Shown in pieces: positions 6,740 through 51,027 of a stretch of 64,000 nucleotides of DNA. This DNA is from an uncultured Neomegalonema sp. (lineage in GTDB: Bacteria; Pseudomonadota; Alphaproteobacteria; Rhodobacterales; Rhodobacteraceae), in the NCBI GenBank assembly GCA_937911325.1, contig CALDSD010000102.1, positions 1 to 64,000 on the forward strand, written 5' to 3'. Made by a program: the position numbers and the translations under genes. The notes below the pieces were generated by a model that was not told where the DNA came from, ran no database searches, and worked only from the letters and a program-made list of their open reading frames with translations. Position 1 is the first letter of the stretch. Each line of letters begins with the position of its first letter.

Positions 6740-6806
6740 CAGACTCGCCTTTTTAAGCCTCTTGGGTCATATTGCAGCGCAGCATTAATGGCGCAACGAG
6801 GATTGC

Positions 6807-7802
6807 ATGAACGGTTGTCTGGTCGATCCTGTCACTGGAAGTCTTAGGCTCGCCGCGAAGCTGGCGGAACAGCCCTTTGGCGCAGCGACCGCAACATCCG
6901 TGACGCAGGATCAGACAGCAAGCGACGCTGCTTTCTGGTTTCTTCGCCAACGCAACGCGTTTTTGGACTGGATGTTCTATGACGTCGCGTCCCTGAGCGC
7001 GCTTGAGCGTGACAAGGTCGCGATGCTTGCGCAGAGCGCCGGCGCGATGCTCGTGGTCTCGCCAAGCGGCGGTCGCTCTCCCCAATTCTACCCCACGATT
7101 GAGGACCTCGCCGTCTCGATCCATCGAGACGTGCGGGTGGCTGCGCTCGCTGGCGTCGGCAGCACGGCGCTCGGCGCGGCGGCCCTGGCGCGAAATGTGG
7201 CGGATGCGGTCGGGGAACCCGTCGTCACCGTGATCTCCGATTACACCGTCGTCGACGCGATGAACGAGGTCATGGGCGGGTGGTTCATGTTCGAAGCCGC
7301 CCGGCGCCTCACCGATCCAGGCCGGATCAGCGAACACACGTTCGTCCAGTCCGGCCGCGACGTCGACACGCTGGCGTCTCTGCTGTCCGACGACCGGTTC
7401 GATCTGCGCTTGCTGGTGGGGCACAGCAAGGGGGGTACAACCCTCTCGAATGCGCTCTATCGGCAAGTCCGAGCCAAGCGTCGAGGCGAAGGGCCCGGGC
7501 CCGACAAATCGCGTTTGATCATCACCCTGGGAGGCGCGATCGTGATGCCGAAGGGGCACACGGTCATCGACGTCATTGGCGACTTCGACGCCTTGGGTTG
7601 GCTCAATTCCGATCCTCGCGCCACCATCGAACGCAGAGCGCCCTTGGCTGGCCACCATACGAATACCATGGCGCCCAACCATCTGAACGTGCGCTCTACG
7701 ATCGAGACGGTGTTGGGAGATTTGGCGGAGAACGACGCCTGGCTGCTTGCAAACAAGCCCAACCGCCGACGGCTGCCTGAGATCGCCGTCGTCGCCGACT
7801 AG
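6807..7802 (+). CDS. Uncharacterised protein with alpha/beta-hydrolase nucleophile-elbow motif
   Basis: A 331-residue protein that I do not recognise as a named family. LLVGHSKGG (about residues 202-210) has the G-x-S-x-G shape of an alpha/beta-hydrolase nucleophile elbow, making Ser207 a candidate nucleophile. A VTVISDY segment (about 141-147) and HHTNTMAPNHLNV (with two candidate histidines) could supply other active-site parts. No signal peptide or transmembrane helix is evident. ATG at 6807 is preceded by GAGG at 6798-6801. It is monocistronic and converges on the aminotransferase gene. A lipase or esterase role is an inference from one motif only. Confidence 0.7.
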   Translation: MNGCLVDPVTGSLRLAAKLAEQPFGAATATSVTQDQTASDAAFWFLRQRNAFLDWMFYDVASLSALERDKVAMLAQSAGAMLVVSPSGGRSPQFYPTIEDLAVSIHRDVRVAALAGVGSTALGAAALARNVADAVGEPVVTVISDYTVVDAMNEVMGGWFMFEAARRLTDPGRISEHTFVQSGRDVDTLASLLSDDRFDLRLLVGHSKGGTTLSNALYRQVRAKRRGEGPGPDKSRLIITLGGAIVMPKGHTVIDVIGDFDALGWLNSDPRATIERRAPLAGHHTNTMAPNHLNVRSTIETVLGDLAENDAWLLANKPNRRRLPEIAVVAD

Positions 7803-10962: not shown

Positions 10963-12975
10963 CTAAGCCGCCTCTCGACCGCGCTCTCCGACGAGTTCGA
11001 CAATGTCGGCCATGATCTTGGTGAGCTCGAAATCCTTCGGCGTGTAGACCCGAGCGACGCCATAGGCTTGCAGCGCCGCGGCGTCTTCCGGCGGGATGAT
11101 TCCGCCCACAATCAGCGGCACGTCCTCAAGCCCCTGCGCGCGCATGCCGTCGATCACCTCTTTCACCAGCGGCATATGCGAGCCCGACAGGATCGACAGG
11201 CCGACGACGTGGACGCCTTCCTCGAGCGCGGCGTTGACGATCTGCGCCGGGGTCAGGCGGATGCCCTCGTAGACGACCTCCATCCCGCAATCGCGGGCGC
11301 GCACGGCGATCTGCTCGGCGCCGTTCGAGTGACCGTCAAGCCCGGGCTTGCCGACGAGGAACTTCAAACGCCGGCCCAACTGCGCAGACACGGCCTCGAC
11401 CGAGGCGCGAACGTCCGCGACCCCCTCGGCCGACGACGACGCCGCTTTGCCGACGCCGGTCGGCGCGCGGTACTCGCCGAAGACTTCGCGCATCACTTGG
11501 CCCCATTCCCCGGTGGTCACACCTGCTTTGGCCGCGGCGACCGACGCGGGCATGACGTTCCGTCCCTCCTGCGCGGCCGACCGCAGCTCTTCAATCGCGG
11601 CTTTGGCGGCGGGTTCGTCGCGCGCATCGCGCCACGCGTTCAGGCGTTCGATCTGCTCGGCCTCCACCGCCGGGTCGATGACTTCGATCGCATCTTCGTT
11701 GGCGGACAAGGGGCTCTCTTCGGTTTCCGTGAACTTGTTCACGCCGATCACGACTTGTTCCCCGGACTCGATCGCCGCCAGGCGCGCCGCGTTGCTCTCG
11801 ACGAGCCGCGCCTTCATGTGATCGATCGCAGCGACGGCGCCGCCAATGTCGTCGATCGCAGCCAGTTCGGCGCGCGCGATCGCTTTCAACGCGTCGACCT
11901 TGCGGTCGACCGCCGGATTGCCGTCGAACAAGTCGTCGTATTCCAGCAGATCGGTTTCGAACGCGAGCACCTGCTGCAAGCGGAGCGACCATTGCTGATC
12001 CCACGGACGGGGCAGCCCCAGCGCCTCGTTCCAAGCCGGCAGCTGCAGCGCGCGGCATCGGGCCTTCTTCGACAGCGTCACCGCCATCGCCTCGATCAAG
12101 ATGCGGTAGACGTTGTTCTCCGGCTGCTGTTCCGTCAGGCCCAGGCTGTTGACCTGCACGCCATAACGGAACCGACGGTTCTTGGGGTCCGTCACGCCAT
12201 AGCGGGTCTCACAGATCTCGTCCCACAGATCGACGAACGCGCGCATCTTGCACATCTCGGTGACGAAACGGATGCCGGCGTTCACGAAGAACGAGATGCG
12301 GCCGACGACGGCCGGGAAATCCTCTTCAGAGATCTCGCCGCGCTCTTTCACCGTATCGAGCACCGCGATCCCCGTCGCCAACGCGTACGCCAATTCCTGT
12401 TCCGGCGTCGCCCCCGCCTCCTGCAGGTGGTACGAGCACACGTTCATCGGATTCCATTTCGGGATCTCGCGATAACTGTAGGCGGCGACATCCGAAATCA
12501 GGCGCAACGACGGCGCCGGCGGGAACACGTAGGTGCCGCGCGAGAGATACTCCTTGATAATGTCGTTCTGGACCGTGCCCTGAAGCTTGGCCGGGTCGAC
12601 GCCCTGCTCCTGGGCGCAGGCGACATAGAGAGACAGAAGCCACGCCGCGGTCGCGTTGATGGTCATCGAGGTGTTCATTTGCTCAAGGGGAATGCCCTCG
12701 AACAACGTCTTCATGTCGCCGAGATGCGCGACCGGCACGCCAACCTTTCCAACCTCGCCGCGGGCCAACAGGTGATCGCTGTCGTATCCCGTCTGCGTCG
12801 GCAGATCGAACGCGACAGACAATCCGGTCTGCCCCTTCGCCAGGTTCTTGCGGTACAGCTCGTTGGACTTCGCCGCCGTTGAATGACCCGCGTAGGTCCG
12901 GATGATCCAGGGTCTGTCCTTTTTGGGGGCGCTCTCGCTCGACGATTGGGAGGTCATTGCGGCCATATCCGTCAT
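10963..12975 (-). CDS. ecm: Ethylmalonyl-CoA mutase (MeaA-type, coenzyme B12-dependent)
   Basis: Converts (2R)-ethylmalonyl-CoA to (2S)-methylsuccinyl-CoA in the ethylmalonyl-CoA pathway of acetyl-CoA assimilation. The 670-residue protein has an N-terminal mutase barrel beginning with PWIIRTYAGHSTAA and GQTGLSVAFDLPTQTGYDSD. A C-terminal cobalamin domain has the signature D-x-H-x-x-G (Asp547, His549, Gly552 in GLDGHSNG). The single-chain form and absence of a small subunit gene fit Ecm/MeaA rather than classical methylmalonyl-CoA mutase. ATG at 12975 is the best-placed start; ATG 12966 is possible. It is divergent from ccr, encoding the preceding pathway enzyme, across a shared 296-base promoter region. 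Confidence 0.92.
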   Translation of the reverse strand: MTDMAAMTSQSSSESAPKKDRPWIIRTYAGHSTAAKSNELYRKNLAKGQTGLSVAFDLPTQTGYDSDHLLARGEVGKVGVPVAHLGDMKTLFEGIPLEQMNTSMTINATAAWLLSLYVACAQEQGVDPAKLQGTVQNDIIKEYLSRGTYVFPPAPSLRLISDVAAYSYREIPKWNPMNVCSYHLQEAGATPEQELAYALATGIAVLDTVKERGEISEEDFPAVVGRISFFVNAGIRFVTEMCKMRAFVDLWDEICETRYGVTDPKNRRFRYGVQVNSLGLTEQQPENNVYRILIEAMAVTLSKKARCRALQLPAWNEALGLPRPWDQQWSLRLQQVLAFETDLLEYDDLFDGNPAVDRKVDALKAIARAELAAIDDIGGAVAAIDHMKARLVESNAARLAAIESGEQVVIGVNKFTETEESPLSANEDAIEVIDPAVEAEQIERLNAWRDARDEPAAKAAIEELRSAAQEGRNVMPASVAAAKAGVTTGEWGQVMREVFGEYRAPTGVGKAASSSAEGVADVRASVEAVSAQLGRRLKFLVGKPGLDGHSNGAEQIAVRARDCGMEVVYEGIRLTPAQIVNAALEEGVHVVGLSILSGSHMPLVKEVIDGMRAQGLEDVPLIVGGIIPPEDAAALQAYGVARVYTPKDFELTKIMADIVELVGERGREAA

Positions 12976-13271
12976 TGTCTCGTTTCCGACGACTATACCC
13001 ATCTCGTGCTGCGTCGCAAAAGAAAGAATGTGGCGTAGAGCTTGTGTTTTGTGTAATTTTGTGGCGCAGATGCGCGGCGGGCCCTCAGGAATACAGGACT
13101 TAAAGCCGCCAGCGCTTGTTCCAATTTTGCAACGCAACAAATGCTTGCGACCGCAAAATCGTAATGTCATTGTCCAGCTCCGTTGAAAAACGACCGATTC
13201 TTTCGTCACGTCTTTCCGCGCCCGCACAAAAAATGCAGAACAGTCGGGTCAAGACAGCTTTGGAGAGCCAG
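12976..13271. promoter_or_regulatory. Divergent ecm-ccr promoter region
   Basis: This 296-base region is visibly less GC-rich than its flanks and drives both genes. It contains TGCGTCGCA at 13010-13018 and a dense cluster of TTGC/GCAA half-sites at 13125-13158, described separately. A longer in-frame start for ccr at 13116 or 13233 is possible but less likely than ATG 13272. Confidence 0.7.
13125..13158. promoter_or_regulatory. Nested TTGC/GCAA inverted half-sites, candidate ScfR/RamB-type operator
   Basis: The outer arms TTTTGC (13125-13130) and GCAAAA (13153-13158) face each other. Inside are TTGC-AAC-GCAA (13127-13137) and TTGCG-AC-CGCAA (13145-13156). Short-chain acyl-CoA responsive regulators of the ScfR family (RamB, PccR) are known to act on ethylmalonyl-CoA or propionyl-CoA genes through TTTGC-type sites. 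The match here is by eye. Confidence 0.55.
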
Positions 13272-14564
13272 ATGGCAGCCCTCGACGCGCACGCCCCTGC
13301 GGCGACTTACGACGCCCCGAAGAAGGACCTTTACGAGGTCGGAGAGATTCCGCCGCTCGGTCATGTGCCCAAGCAAATGTACGCCTGGGCGATCCGTCGC
13401 GAGCGTCACGGTCCTCCGGAAGAGGCGATGCAGCTCGAAACGGTCGAGACGCCAAAACTCGACAGCAATGAAGTGCTGGTTCTCGTGATGGCCGCCGGGG
13501 TGAACTATAACGGCATTTGGGCCGGGCTCGGCGAGCCGATCTCTCCGTTCGACGGCCACGGGGCTGATTTCCATATCGCCGGATCCGACGCATCCGGCGT
13601 GGTTTGGGCTGTCGGCGACAAGGTCAAGCGCTGGAAAGTCGGCGACGAAGTCGTGATCCACTGCAATCAGGACGATGGCGACGACGAAGAGTGCAACGGC
13701 GGCGATCCCATGCACTCGCCGACGCAGCGGATCTGGGGCTATGAGACCCCAGACGGGTCGTTCGCCCAGTTCACCCACGTTCAGGCCCAGCAGCTGATGC
13801 ACAGGCCGAAACATCTGACCTGGGAAGAAAGCGCCTGCTACACGCTCACCCTGGCGACCGCTTACCGAATGCTGTTCGGGCACCGGCCGCACATTTTGCG
13901 GCCAGGCCAGAACGTGCTCGTCTGGGGCGCGTCGGGCGGTCTGGGGTCTTACGCGATCCAGCTGATCAACACCGCCGGGGCCAACGCGGTCGCGGTGATC
14001 TCGGACGAGGGCAAGCGCGATTTCGTCATGGGTCTGGGGGCGAAAGGCGCGATCAACCGCAAAGACTTCAACTGCTGGGGTCAGATGCCCAAGGTCGGCT
14101 CGGAGGAATACAAGACCTGGTTCGCCGAAGCCCGCAAGTTCGGGAAGGCGATCTGGGACATCACCGGCAAGGGTGTGAACGTGGACATCGTCTTCGAGCA
14201 CCCAGGCGAGGCGACCTTCGCCGTCTCCAACTTCGTGTGCAAGCGCGGCGGCATGGTCGTCATCTGCGCCGGCACGACAGGCTTCAACACCACCTTCGAC
14301 GTGCGCCATATGTGGATGCACCAGAAGCGACTGCAGGGTTCGCATTTCGCCAACCTCTTGCAGGCGAGCCAGGCGAACCAACTGATGATCGAGCGCCGTC
14401 TCGATCCGTGCATGTCCGAGCTCTTCCCATGGTCCGACATTCCCAAGGCCCACACCAAGATGTGGAAGAACGAGCATGCGCCGGGCAACATGGCGGTGCT
14501 GGTCGGCGCGAAAGAGCCGGGTCTGAAGACGCTGGAAGACGCGGCGGAACTGGCCTGGGGCTAA
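13272..14564 (+). CDS. ccr: Crotonyl-CoA carboxylase/reductase
   Basis: Key enzyme of the ethylmalonyl-CoA pathway: reductive carboxylation of crotonyl-CoA with NADPH and CO2 to (2S)-ethylmalonyl-CoA. The 430-residue zinc-free medium-chain reductase has the family opening LYEVGEIPPLGHVPKQMYAW, the substrate-region phrase RIWGYETPDGSFAQF, the nucleotide-binding loop WGASGGLGS (218-226), INRKDFNCWGQ, and a C-terminal TKMWKNEHAPGNMAVLV, all typical of Ccr. ATG at 13272 is preceded by GGAG at 13262-13265 with six-base spacing. A strong terminator follows at 14589. Located divergently from ecm. Confidence 0.96.
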   Translation: MAALDAHAPAATYDAPKKDLYEVGEIPPLGHVPKQMYAWAIRRERHGPPEEAMQLETVETPKLDSNEVLVLVMAAGVNYNGIWAGLGEPISPFDGHGADFHIAGSDASGVVWAVGDKVKRWKVGDEVVIHCNQDDGDDEECNGGDPMHSPTQRIWGYETPDGSFAQFTHVQAQQLMHRPKHLTWEESACYTLTLATAYRMLFGHRPHILRPGQNVLVWGASGGLGSYAIQLINTAGANAVAVISDEGKRDFVMGLGAKGAINRKDFNCWGQMPKVGSEEYKTWFAEARKFGKAIWDITGKGVNVDIVFEHPGEATFAVSNFVCKRGGMVVICAGTTGFNTTFDVRHMWMHQKRLQGSHFANLLQASQANQLMIERRLDPCMSELFPWSDIPKAHTKMWKNEHAPGNMAVLVGAKEPGLKTLEDAAELAWG

Positions 14565-49922: not shown

Positions 49923-50014
49923 GCGAGCGGCGGCGCGCCTGGAAGCCTCTCACCTTCTGCGGTGAAGCGTTGACCAGAGAGTGTCTGCGTGCATATGTGC
50001 GCCGCAGCATTAGC

Positions 50015-50032
50015 TTGCGCAACATTCGCAAA
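50015..50032. promoter_or_regulatory. TTGC/GCAA half-sites upstream of mcl1
   Basis: TTGCGCAA (50015-50022), a perfect palindrome, is followed two bases later by TTCGCAAA (50025-50032). They lie just 11-29 bases before the mcl1 ATG and match the half-site type in the ecm-ccr promoter. Confidence 0.5.
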
Positions 50033-50043
50033 GGTCAGACGCC

Positions 50044-51027
50044 ATGAGCTTCAAGATTCAACCGCAGACACCTGCGCGCCCCAATCGCTGCCAACTCTTC
50101 GGTCCAGGGTCTCGCCCAGAGCTGTTCGAGAAGATGGCCGCCAGTGCGGCGGATGTCGTGAACCTGGACCTGGAAGACTCGGTCTCTCCCGCTGATAAAC
50201 CGAAAGCGCGTGAGAACATCATCCAGGCGATCAACGACATCGACTGGGGCGGCAAATCCCTTTCGGTCCGGATCAACGGCCTCGACACTGAGTTCTGGTA
50301 TCGCGACGTCGTCGACGTGCTCGAGAAAGCGGGCGATCGTCTTGACTTGATCATGATCCCAAAGGTCGGCAACGCCGGCGACATGTACGCCGTCGACGCG
50401 CTGGTGACCGCCGTCGAGCGGGCCAAGGGGCGCAGCAAGCAGATCGGATTCGAGATTATCATCGAGACGGCGGCGGGCGCGCAGAACGTCGATGAAATCG
50501 CAGCGGCCACCCCTCGTCTTCAGTCCATGAGCTTTGGCGTCGCCGACTATGCGGCCTCGATGGGGATGCGCGTCACAGGCATCGGCGGAACCCAGGACGA
50601 CTACTTCATGTTGGCGAATGGCGCACCCGGTTCCGAGCGCGCAGTCAGCATGGTCGATCCGTGGCATTACCCGATCACCCGGATGGTTGCGGCGTGCCGC
50701 CAGCACGGCGTCTTGCCTGTGGACGGACCCTTCGGCGACTTCTCGGACTCCGACGGCTATCGCGCGCAGGCGCTCCGCTCGGCGACGATGGGATGCGTTG
50801 GGAAATGGGCGCTCCACCCCAAACAGGTCGCGCTCGCCAACGAGGTGTTCACGCCGTCAGACGCTGTTGTGACCGAAGCCCAGCGCATTCTCGAAGCGAT
50901 GGCGGAAGCAGAAAAGAGCGGCCAGGGCGCCGCAGTGCTGGACGGCAAGCTGATCGACATCGCCTCTGCCCGCCAAGCCAATGTTATCGTTCAGCAAATC
51001 GAACTGATTGAAAACAGCAAAGCCTAA
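50044..51027 (+). CDS. mcl1: L-malyl-CoA/beta-methylmalyl-CoA lyase
   Basis: Lyase of the ethylmalonyl-CoA pathway that splits beta-methylmalyl-CoA to glyoxylate and propionyl-CoA and condenses or cleaves malyl-CoA. The 327-residue CitE-family protein opens PARPNRCQLFGPGSRPELFEK, has the Mg-site phrase VNLDLEDSVSPADK, IMIPKVGNAGDMYAVDALV, IGFEIIIETAAG, and GKWALHPKQVALANEVF at the C-terminus, all characteristic of Mcl1. ATG 50044 follows half-sites for a possible pathway regulator. Together with ccr and ecm it forms the diagnostic set of this pathway. Confidence 0.92.
   Translation: MSFKIQPQTPARPNRCQLFGPGSRPELFEKMAASAADVVNLDLEDSVSPADKPKARENIIQAINDIDWGGKSLSVRINGLDTEFWYRDVVDVLEKAGDRLDLIMIPKVGNAGDMYAVDALVTAVERAKGRSKQIGFEIIIETAAGAQNVDEIAAATPRLQSMSFGVADYAASMGMRVTGIGGTQDDYFMLANGAPGSERAVSMVDPWHYPITRMVAACRQHGVLPVDGPFGDFSDSDGYRAQALRSATMGCVGKWALHPKQVALANEVFTPSDAVVTEAQRILEAMAEAEKSGQGAAVLDGKLIDIASARQANVIVQQIELIENSKA

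Follow-up and report, generated by a model that had tools for sequence, protein, structure and literature searches.

PHB synthesis and the ethylmalonyl-CoA (EMC) pathway share acetoacetyl-CoA and 3-hydroxybutyryl-CoA/crotonyl-CoA. PhaR (AniA) represses phasin genes and is itself titrated by PHB granules, and its motif in S. meliloti is WNWD2NYGCRNYGCRNH2WNW (PMC12542648). Published S. meliloti targets include phasins, depolymerases, exopolysaccharide genes, and central-carbon genes; the words "ccr" and "ethylmalonyl" are absent from the main text of that study (PMC12542648). In Methylobacterium, PhaR is reported to take part in the partitioning of acetyl-CoA flux (PMC6520949), and the regulator is already an engineering target (PMC6520949, PMC12542648). 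In Paracoccus, the EMC pathway is described as being lowered by a signal that is not yet known (PMC10370305). We found no PhaR operator at an EMC gene in the open-access papers searched, including the accessible text of PMC6520949, PMC11237726, PMC7109303, and PMC9041414. In PMC2948502 and PMC10164722, which likewise name both PhaR and ethylmalonyl-CoA, PhaR appears in a reference only, and "ccr" is absent from the main text of the Methylorubrum phaR-mutant RNA-seq study (PMC6520949).

Here, we analyzed a window of 64,000 nucleotides from an uncultured Neomegalonema sp. (Rhodobacteraceae), in which ecm and ccr diverge from a 296-bp intergenic stretch (Table 1). The starts are assumed to be 12975 on the minus strand for ecm and 13272 for ccr. 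A sequence-only reading of this DNA had taken the neighbors for EMC pathway genes, which holds for ccr by TIGR01751 and for ecm by mutase family and position: its product scores 563.7 bits against NF006944, below the cut-off of 876, and we call this mutase-family gene ecm from its adjacency to ccr and that sub-cut-off methylmalonyl-CoA mutase score. The same reading had described four facing TTGC/GCAA half-sites at 13125-13158, and the sequence bears this out (TTTTGC at 13125-13130, GCAA at 13134-13137, TTGC at 13145-13148, and GCAAAA at 13153-13158). As a stand-alone motif, TTGCNNNGCAA was dropped: it occurs once in the window against 1.45 expected, which is chance level. Genome-wide, TTGC-N1-8-GCAA is rarer than its reversed control (436 versus 691 on the forward strand). 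The nested arrangement (TTGC-N1-6-GCAA, 0 to 15 bases, and a repeat) is rare, with one occurrence in the window and none in 60 first-order Markov shuffles of it or in 400 kb sampled from this genome. Rather than the 34-bp block, the natural unit consists of the palindrome at 13122-13142 (operator 1), a distinct palindrome to its right, and a partner in the ecm leader (operator 2). Operators 1 and 2 are inverted copies of each other, with arms at 13007-13021 and 13125-13139 that are 87% complementary over 15 nt. The sole predicted sigma-70 promoter, which would serve ecm, was set aside, since hardly any leader would remain ahead of the start at 12975.

TABLE 1 Coordinates of genes and predicted sites in the window and of related sites at other loci
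Feature	Position	Strand	Remarks
ecm, ethylmalonyl-CoA mutase	10963..12975	-	TIGR00641 476.8 bits, above its cut-off
PhaR-type operator 2 (predicted), ecm leader	13004..13024		14.05 bits, rank 4 in window
PhaR-type operator 1 (predicted), CAATTTTGCAACGCAACAAAT, core YGCR-N-YGCR	13122..13142		21.5 bits, rank 1
Second nested palindrome, TTGCG-AC-CGCAA	13145..13156		Poor PhaR match
ccr, crotonyl-CoA carboxylase/reductase	13272..14564	+	TIGR01751 600.9 bits, cut-off 378.55
PhaR-type site (predicted) before mcl1	49992..50012		15.6 bits, rank 3
TTTGCGAATGTTGCGCA, window's only PrpR-type match (≤3 mismatches), holds AATGTTGCGC	50016..50032	-	2 mismatches
AATGTTGCGC copy by PhaR-type site, before mcl1	50026	-	
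AATGTTGCGC copy by PhaR-type site, before mcl2-mch	L306, 10249	+	
mcl1, malyl-CoA/beta-methylmalyl-CoA lyase (EMC)	50044..51027	+	PDB 4l9y, E 8.6e-149; PDB 5ugr, E 2.4e-115
Sites of at least 12 bits in family genomes without detected PhaR	L212, L213, L214, L216		Four of seven with ccr

The window was scored with a symmetric matrix built from 25 S. meliloti sites in promoters that PhaR bound efficiently or weakly in EMSA, and from nothing in this genome; its rows are part of the published table, leaving out one site's mirror rows and another three exoH palindromes (PMC12542648). Operator 1 ranked first among 63,980 window positions and shows a single mismatch to the 21-position S. meliloti consensus, a C at the first W. 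The mcl1 and ecm sites of Table 1 followed at ranks three and four, and the fifth position scored only 10.0 bits, so three of the best four sites in the window sit before EMC pathway genes (ccr, ecm, and mcl1). The first six ranks were unchanged when the exoH sites were added to the matrix, and the ranking holds under other choices of sites. Among 500 column-permuted matrices, three placed their top hit in the ecm-ccr interval, and none placed three of its top four hits in that interval or in the 150 bp before mcl1. The remaining high-scoring site, rank two at 6767-6787 (20.3 bits), precedes a 331-aa open reading frame (6807-7802) that has no Pfam or NCBIfam match at 1e-5. Operator 1 has the same palindromic core, flanked by AT-rich arms, and the same spacing as the S. 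meliloti PhaR operators, of which the listed phaP1 site ATTTATTGCAACGCACAACCA is similar, and the same TGC-N3-GCA palindrome as the Rhodobacter sphaeroides PhaR site CTGCNNNGCAG quoted in that study (PMC12542648). Compared with the latter, the window reads TTGCNNNGCAA, and ccr sites of the core family read TTCTGCRNYGCGGCA. In eight core Rhodobacteraceae loci, sites of the Rhodobacter sphaeroides type occur in pairs upstream of phaR, where phaP is expected.

The genome carries a PhaR gene on another contig (PF07879, 108.5 bits; TIGR01848, 146.3 bits, cut-off 109.45). It also has three phasin-family genes, two of which lie in tandem and have two PhaR-type sites each, 19 to 20 bp apart, scoring 24.3, 22.9, 16.6, and 16.3 bits; the 10-mer TGCGTTGCAA is common to one of these sites and the reverse strand of operator 1. 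No such site was found ahead of the start of the third phasin-family gene (L145) or, by pattern scan, upstream of phaR in this genome.

Only two sites of at least 14 bits, both intergenic according to a custom codon-usage gene caller, were present in the 400-kb sample, which was drawn, without inspection of the sequence, from 10 contigs that a site search had brought up and is not random. The first lies 51 bp before a gene for a CitE-like lyase, followed by a mesaconyl-CoA hydratase gene that matches the beta-methylmalyl-CoA dehydratase of PDB 8hgn (E 5.6e-129). We take these two genes for mcl2-mch; the label mcl2 is based on family and position. Farther downstream are genes resembling sdhCDAB, named from their translations only. 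The second site is flanked by a methylmalonate-semialdehyde dehydrogenase gene (TIGR01722, 638.9 bits) and an acetyltransferase gene. A genome-wide pattern search, confined to the cores TGCRNYGCAANA and TGCRNYGCAGCA (55 and 26 places) and followed by scoring, gave 23 sites of at least 14 bits, of which 21 are intergenic according to labels that depend on the same gene caller. The loci scored were 30 and 26 from the core searches plus 15 extra stretches, with the four phasin sites outside this set; the first core was picked after the phasin, ccr, and ecm sites and the second after the window hits, so those hits are not independent. Besides the ccr, ecm, and mcl1 sites, these comprise one (15.98 bits) that stands 36 bp ahead of mcm, the gene for methylmalonyl-CoA mutase (NF006944, 923.9 bits, over the cut-off). 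Others precede aconitase, hfq, and mreB, and some precede genes that bear no obvious relation to carbon storage, among them one of the glutamine synthetase family and one for a LysR regulator. Ahead of isocitrate dehydrogenase is a site of 13.8 bits. At a further locus, L168, a PhaR-type site of 16.2 bits has a DMSP lyase family gene on one side and a gene for a short-chain dehydrogenase on the other.

Sites of this class recur before ccr in relatives. The S. meliloti matrix gave at least 10 bits for 117 of 152 regions upstream of ccr, against 4.0% of shuffles, and at least 14 bits for 67 of 152, against 0.9%. At 10 bits or more, the controls gave 2.2% of 2445 windows, and other genes in 80 of these loci gave 16 of 323 upstream regions (7 of 323 at 14 bits or more). 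The 152 regions comprise 110 loci (L004-L113, of which 80 were the best among 596 relatives), 25 more (L176-L200), L212-L216, L218, and the 11 stretches L201-L211. Counted among them are the window's own copy (L084) and a second, 51%-identical ccr of genome G052 (L211, no site); L081 and L092 share one upstream sequence, leaving 109 distinct of the 110. A pattern of the kind GATTCTGCRNYGCGGCA precedes the ccr start in 86 of the 110 loci, the window's own included. Where ecm is apart from ccr, 29 of 61 promoters reached 10 bits (shuffles, 4.2%). Upstream of mcl1, 7 of the best 30 loci reached 12 bits, again with the window's own included (shuffles, 1.9%); these loci (L220-L249) are the best 30, and 47 of 61 genomes had a match.

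When YTGC/GCRR dyads were counted (leaving out L211 and L218 before ccr), N3 was the most enriched spacing both before ccr (164 versus 13.7 in shuffles) and before phaR (38 versus 9.8), and it was barely enriched upstream of the best 30 mcl1 genes (6 versus 2.4). Spacings 0, 1, 6, 8, and 11 also exceed shuffles before ccr, in part at least because they overlap other conserved elements. The best 30 mcl1 upstream regions hold further spacings in excess of shuffles, namely, N0 (23 versus 3.4), N4 (15 versus 2.0), and N10 (19 versus 2.2).

Beyond the family, all five genomes found with both PhaR and ccr (G037, G039, G040, G045, and G052) have a ccr site, at 14.5 to 28.5 bits. In G052 it precedes the first ccr and not the second, and G044, also from another family, has ccr, no detected PhaR, and no scoring site. 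Within the family, the three genomes with the highest Ccr identity to the window among the matches listed, G017 (86%), G411 (86%), and G008 (88%, partial Ccr), each carry PhaR but lack the site before ccr. PhaR was not detected in 15 of 394 family genomes. Among these, eight have a completeness of 90% or more and a contamination of 5% or less; a ccr match at 1e-200 is missing from six of them (for G304, G332, and G385, as judged from their absence among the matches listed), against a background of 31 of 347 family genomes of the same quality. In the other two near-complete genomes, G003 and G402, ccr is present and its site is degenerate or absent. Five less complete genomes have ccr and no detected PhaR; four of them (G287, G190, G348, and G246, 70 to 89% complete) keep a site of at least 12 bits, and G033 has none. 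This distribution of PhaR, ccr, and the site across the family is suggestive and falls short of proof.

The PhaR of the window's genome shares 46 to 65% identity with its counterparts in other families and in some members of its own family, and only 31 to 38% with the core Rhodobacteraceae PhaR compared (L003, L114-L142 set). Between two PhaR classes, the occurrence of a GATTC-flanked site differs (0 of 12 versus 40 of 49), as does that of a site of at least 10 bits (8 of 12 versus 40 of 49), suggesting two PhaR types that may have different operators, in a comparison confounded with phylogeny.

We consider it probable that operators 1 and 2 are PhaR operators and that, with the sites described above, they tie ecm, ccr, mcl1, mcl2-mch, and mcm into a regulon of PhaR, which PHB would titrate. 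The case is built on the match in sequence, on the same operator type at two phasin promoters of this genome, on recurrence before EMC genes, and on conservation at most of the family loci sampled and, outside the family, in five genomes. In the core family, we read the site as lying downstream of a TTGCAA-N17-TATTCC-like promoter and ahead of the start codon, where a repressor would be expected to bind. We infer PhaR binding, repression rather than activation, and PHB titration, carrying over to ccr and ecm what PhaR does at phasin genes. Free PhaR would bind the palindromes and repress the EMC genes; as PHB accumulates, the granules would titrate PhaR and release the EMC genes together with the phasins, and acetoacetyl-CoA/crotonyl-CoA units would be drawn into biomass. 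Among the counterpoints are the missing ccr site in G017, G411, and G008, the lack of a site before the third phasin-family gene and phaR of this genome, the sites kept by four family genomes in which PhaR was not detected, the presence of mcl1 sites in only 7 of the best 30 loci, and the right-hand palindrome, which is unexplained by PhaR.

That right-hand palindrome scores -7.7 to -12.4 bits against the PhaR matrix in three registers. It may be a candidate site of another factor or an N4-spaced variant, and in sequence it appears to resemble either such a variant or the AATRTTGCGC box before mcl1 and mcl2. N4-spaced YTGC/GCRR dyads number 56 before ccr (12.6 in shuffles) and are less enriched before phaR (17 versus 9.6). 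The shorter AATRTTGCG was counted, without a shuffle control, in 32 of 150 ccr upstream regions and in 7 of the best 30 for mcl1. In 464 kb, AATGTTGCGC occurs three times, and two of the copies adjoin the PhaR-type sites of mcl1 and mcl2-mch.

These elements bear on the possibility that a different EMC regulator binds the AATRTTGCGC box, the N4 palindromes, and perhaps the N3 site, with the likeness to PhaR being coincidental. The position of AATGTTGCGC beside the mcl1 and mcl2 sites and the enrichment of N4 dyads before ccr and mcl1 both fit such a factor. So do the other conserved elements of core Rhodobacteraceae ccr promoters (L004-L113), which have CATAAAATTACAAAAT and TTGCAATRTTGCGC in common ahead of the PhaR-type site. 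The ccr site of the core family itself is asymmetric: its right half, GCGG, departs from the symmetry of the phaP operators (CTGCRNYGCAG), so another factor could read it. There is also precedent in a TetR-family activator, CcrR, described for an EMC gene in Methylobacterium. However, the N3 site fits both a PhaR motif that was derived independently and the phasin operators of this genome, and N3 is the top spacing before both ccr and phaR. In addition, a matrix of the core-family ccr box did not recover the mcl1 promoters (3 of the best 30 at 6 bits; shuffles, 5.7%). We regard such a different regulator, with a coincidental likeness to PhaR, as unlikely.

The sequence-only reading had instead pointed to regulators of the ScfR family (RamB, PccR) that sense short-chain acyl-CoAs; the MccR type falls under the same explanation. 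It was right that the window holds no ScfR gene: the genome has two (207.2 and 147.8 bits), on contigs C51 and C46, and none on the window's C101. Both genes are nearest the RamB model, yet below its 700-bit cut-off (390.7 and 320.4). ScfR sites of Mycobacterium tuberculosis contain TTTGC(A/G)AA (PMC6765138), and the site here contains TTTGCAAC. In Paracoccus, a ramB deletion raises EMC transcripts and affects ccr; deletion of the putative pccR and mccR had no effect in the reporter strains described (PMC10370305). A PrpR-like match, TTTGCGAATGTTGCGCA, stands ahead of mcl1 and adjoins its PhaR-type site; 1.14 such matches are expected per window, which is chance level.

The likeness to the operators of PrpR, RamB, and PccR lies in a TTTGC half-site that overlaps part of operator 1; the difference is that their pair geometry is absent from the ecm-ccr site and unenriched upstream of ccr. 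The PccR consensus consists of two TTTGC(A/G)AA palindromes 4 bp apart. Within the ecm-ccr interval, this N4 pair has six or more mismatches at every position. Allowing up to three, it is not found in the window, and before ccr it occurs in 4 of 150 regions (shuffles, 2.2%). The PrpR pair, TTTGCRAA-N1-TTTGCRAA, has at least four mismatches in the interval and occurs, with up to three, in 2 of 150 ccr regions (shuffles, 2.0%). Class-2 RamB boxes (boxes with an 18-bp spacer, after oligonucleotides in PMC10370305) were sought as single boxes with up to two mismatches; none is near the site, and four lie elsewhere in the window against 5.24 expected. In one Paracoccus RamB oligonucleotide, the spacer between the two boxes, GATTCTGCGGATGCA, resembles the conserved ccr site (PMC10370305). 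With geometry and enrichment both negative for the pair spacings tested and no RamB box nearby, we rejected an ScfR identity for the left site, and binding of the nested half-sites by an ScfR regulator is quite improbable; an ScfR protein may have a role at the right-hand half-sites. The enrichment upstream of EMC genes that the sequence-only reading had named as support was found with the PhaR matrix (ccr, ecm, mcl1, mcm, and mcl2-mch) and failed to appear for ScfR pairs before ccr. These comparisons support its broader proposal, namely, that regulation of the EMC pathway involves a site here, for the predicted operators.

A functionless chance arrangement would suit the chance frequency of TTGCNNNGCAA in the window and the missing site in three close relatives (G017, G411, and G008), but is extremely improbable given that the full arrangement is found in neither 60 shuffles nor the 400-kb sample, that its left half tops the window in the PhaR matrix, and that sites of the same class recur before ccr in 117 of 152 loci.

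Returning to PhaR as the regulator, a wider proposal, which we offer tentatively and hold to be close to evenly balanced without leaning toward it, is that PhaR, through titration by PHB granules, would act as a general switch of the EMC pathway in Alphaproteobacteria (ccr, ecm, mcl1, mcl2-mch, and mcm). The polymer, not an acyl-CoA, would then be the signal that opens acetate assimilation, with a second factor acting at the AATRTTGCGC box. How the EMC pathway is switched is poorly understood, and a PhaR operator at ccr in most of the loci sampled would link carbon storage to C2 assimilation directly. It would be relevant to the engineering of bioplastics and dicarboxylic acids. For this organism, the predicted operators suggest that carbon storage and acetate assimilation may be under joint control.
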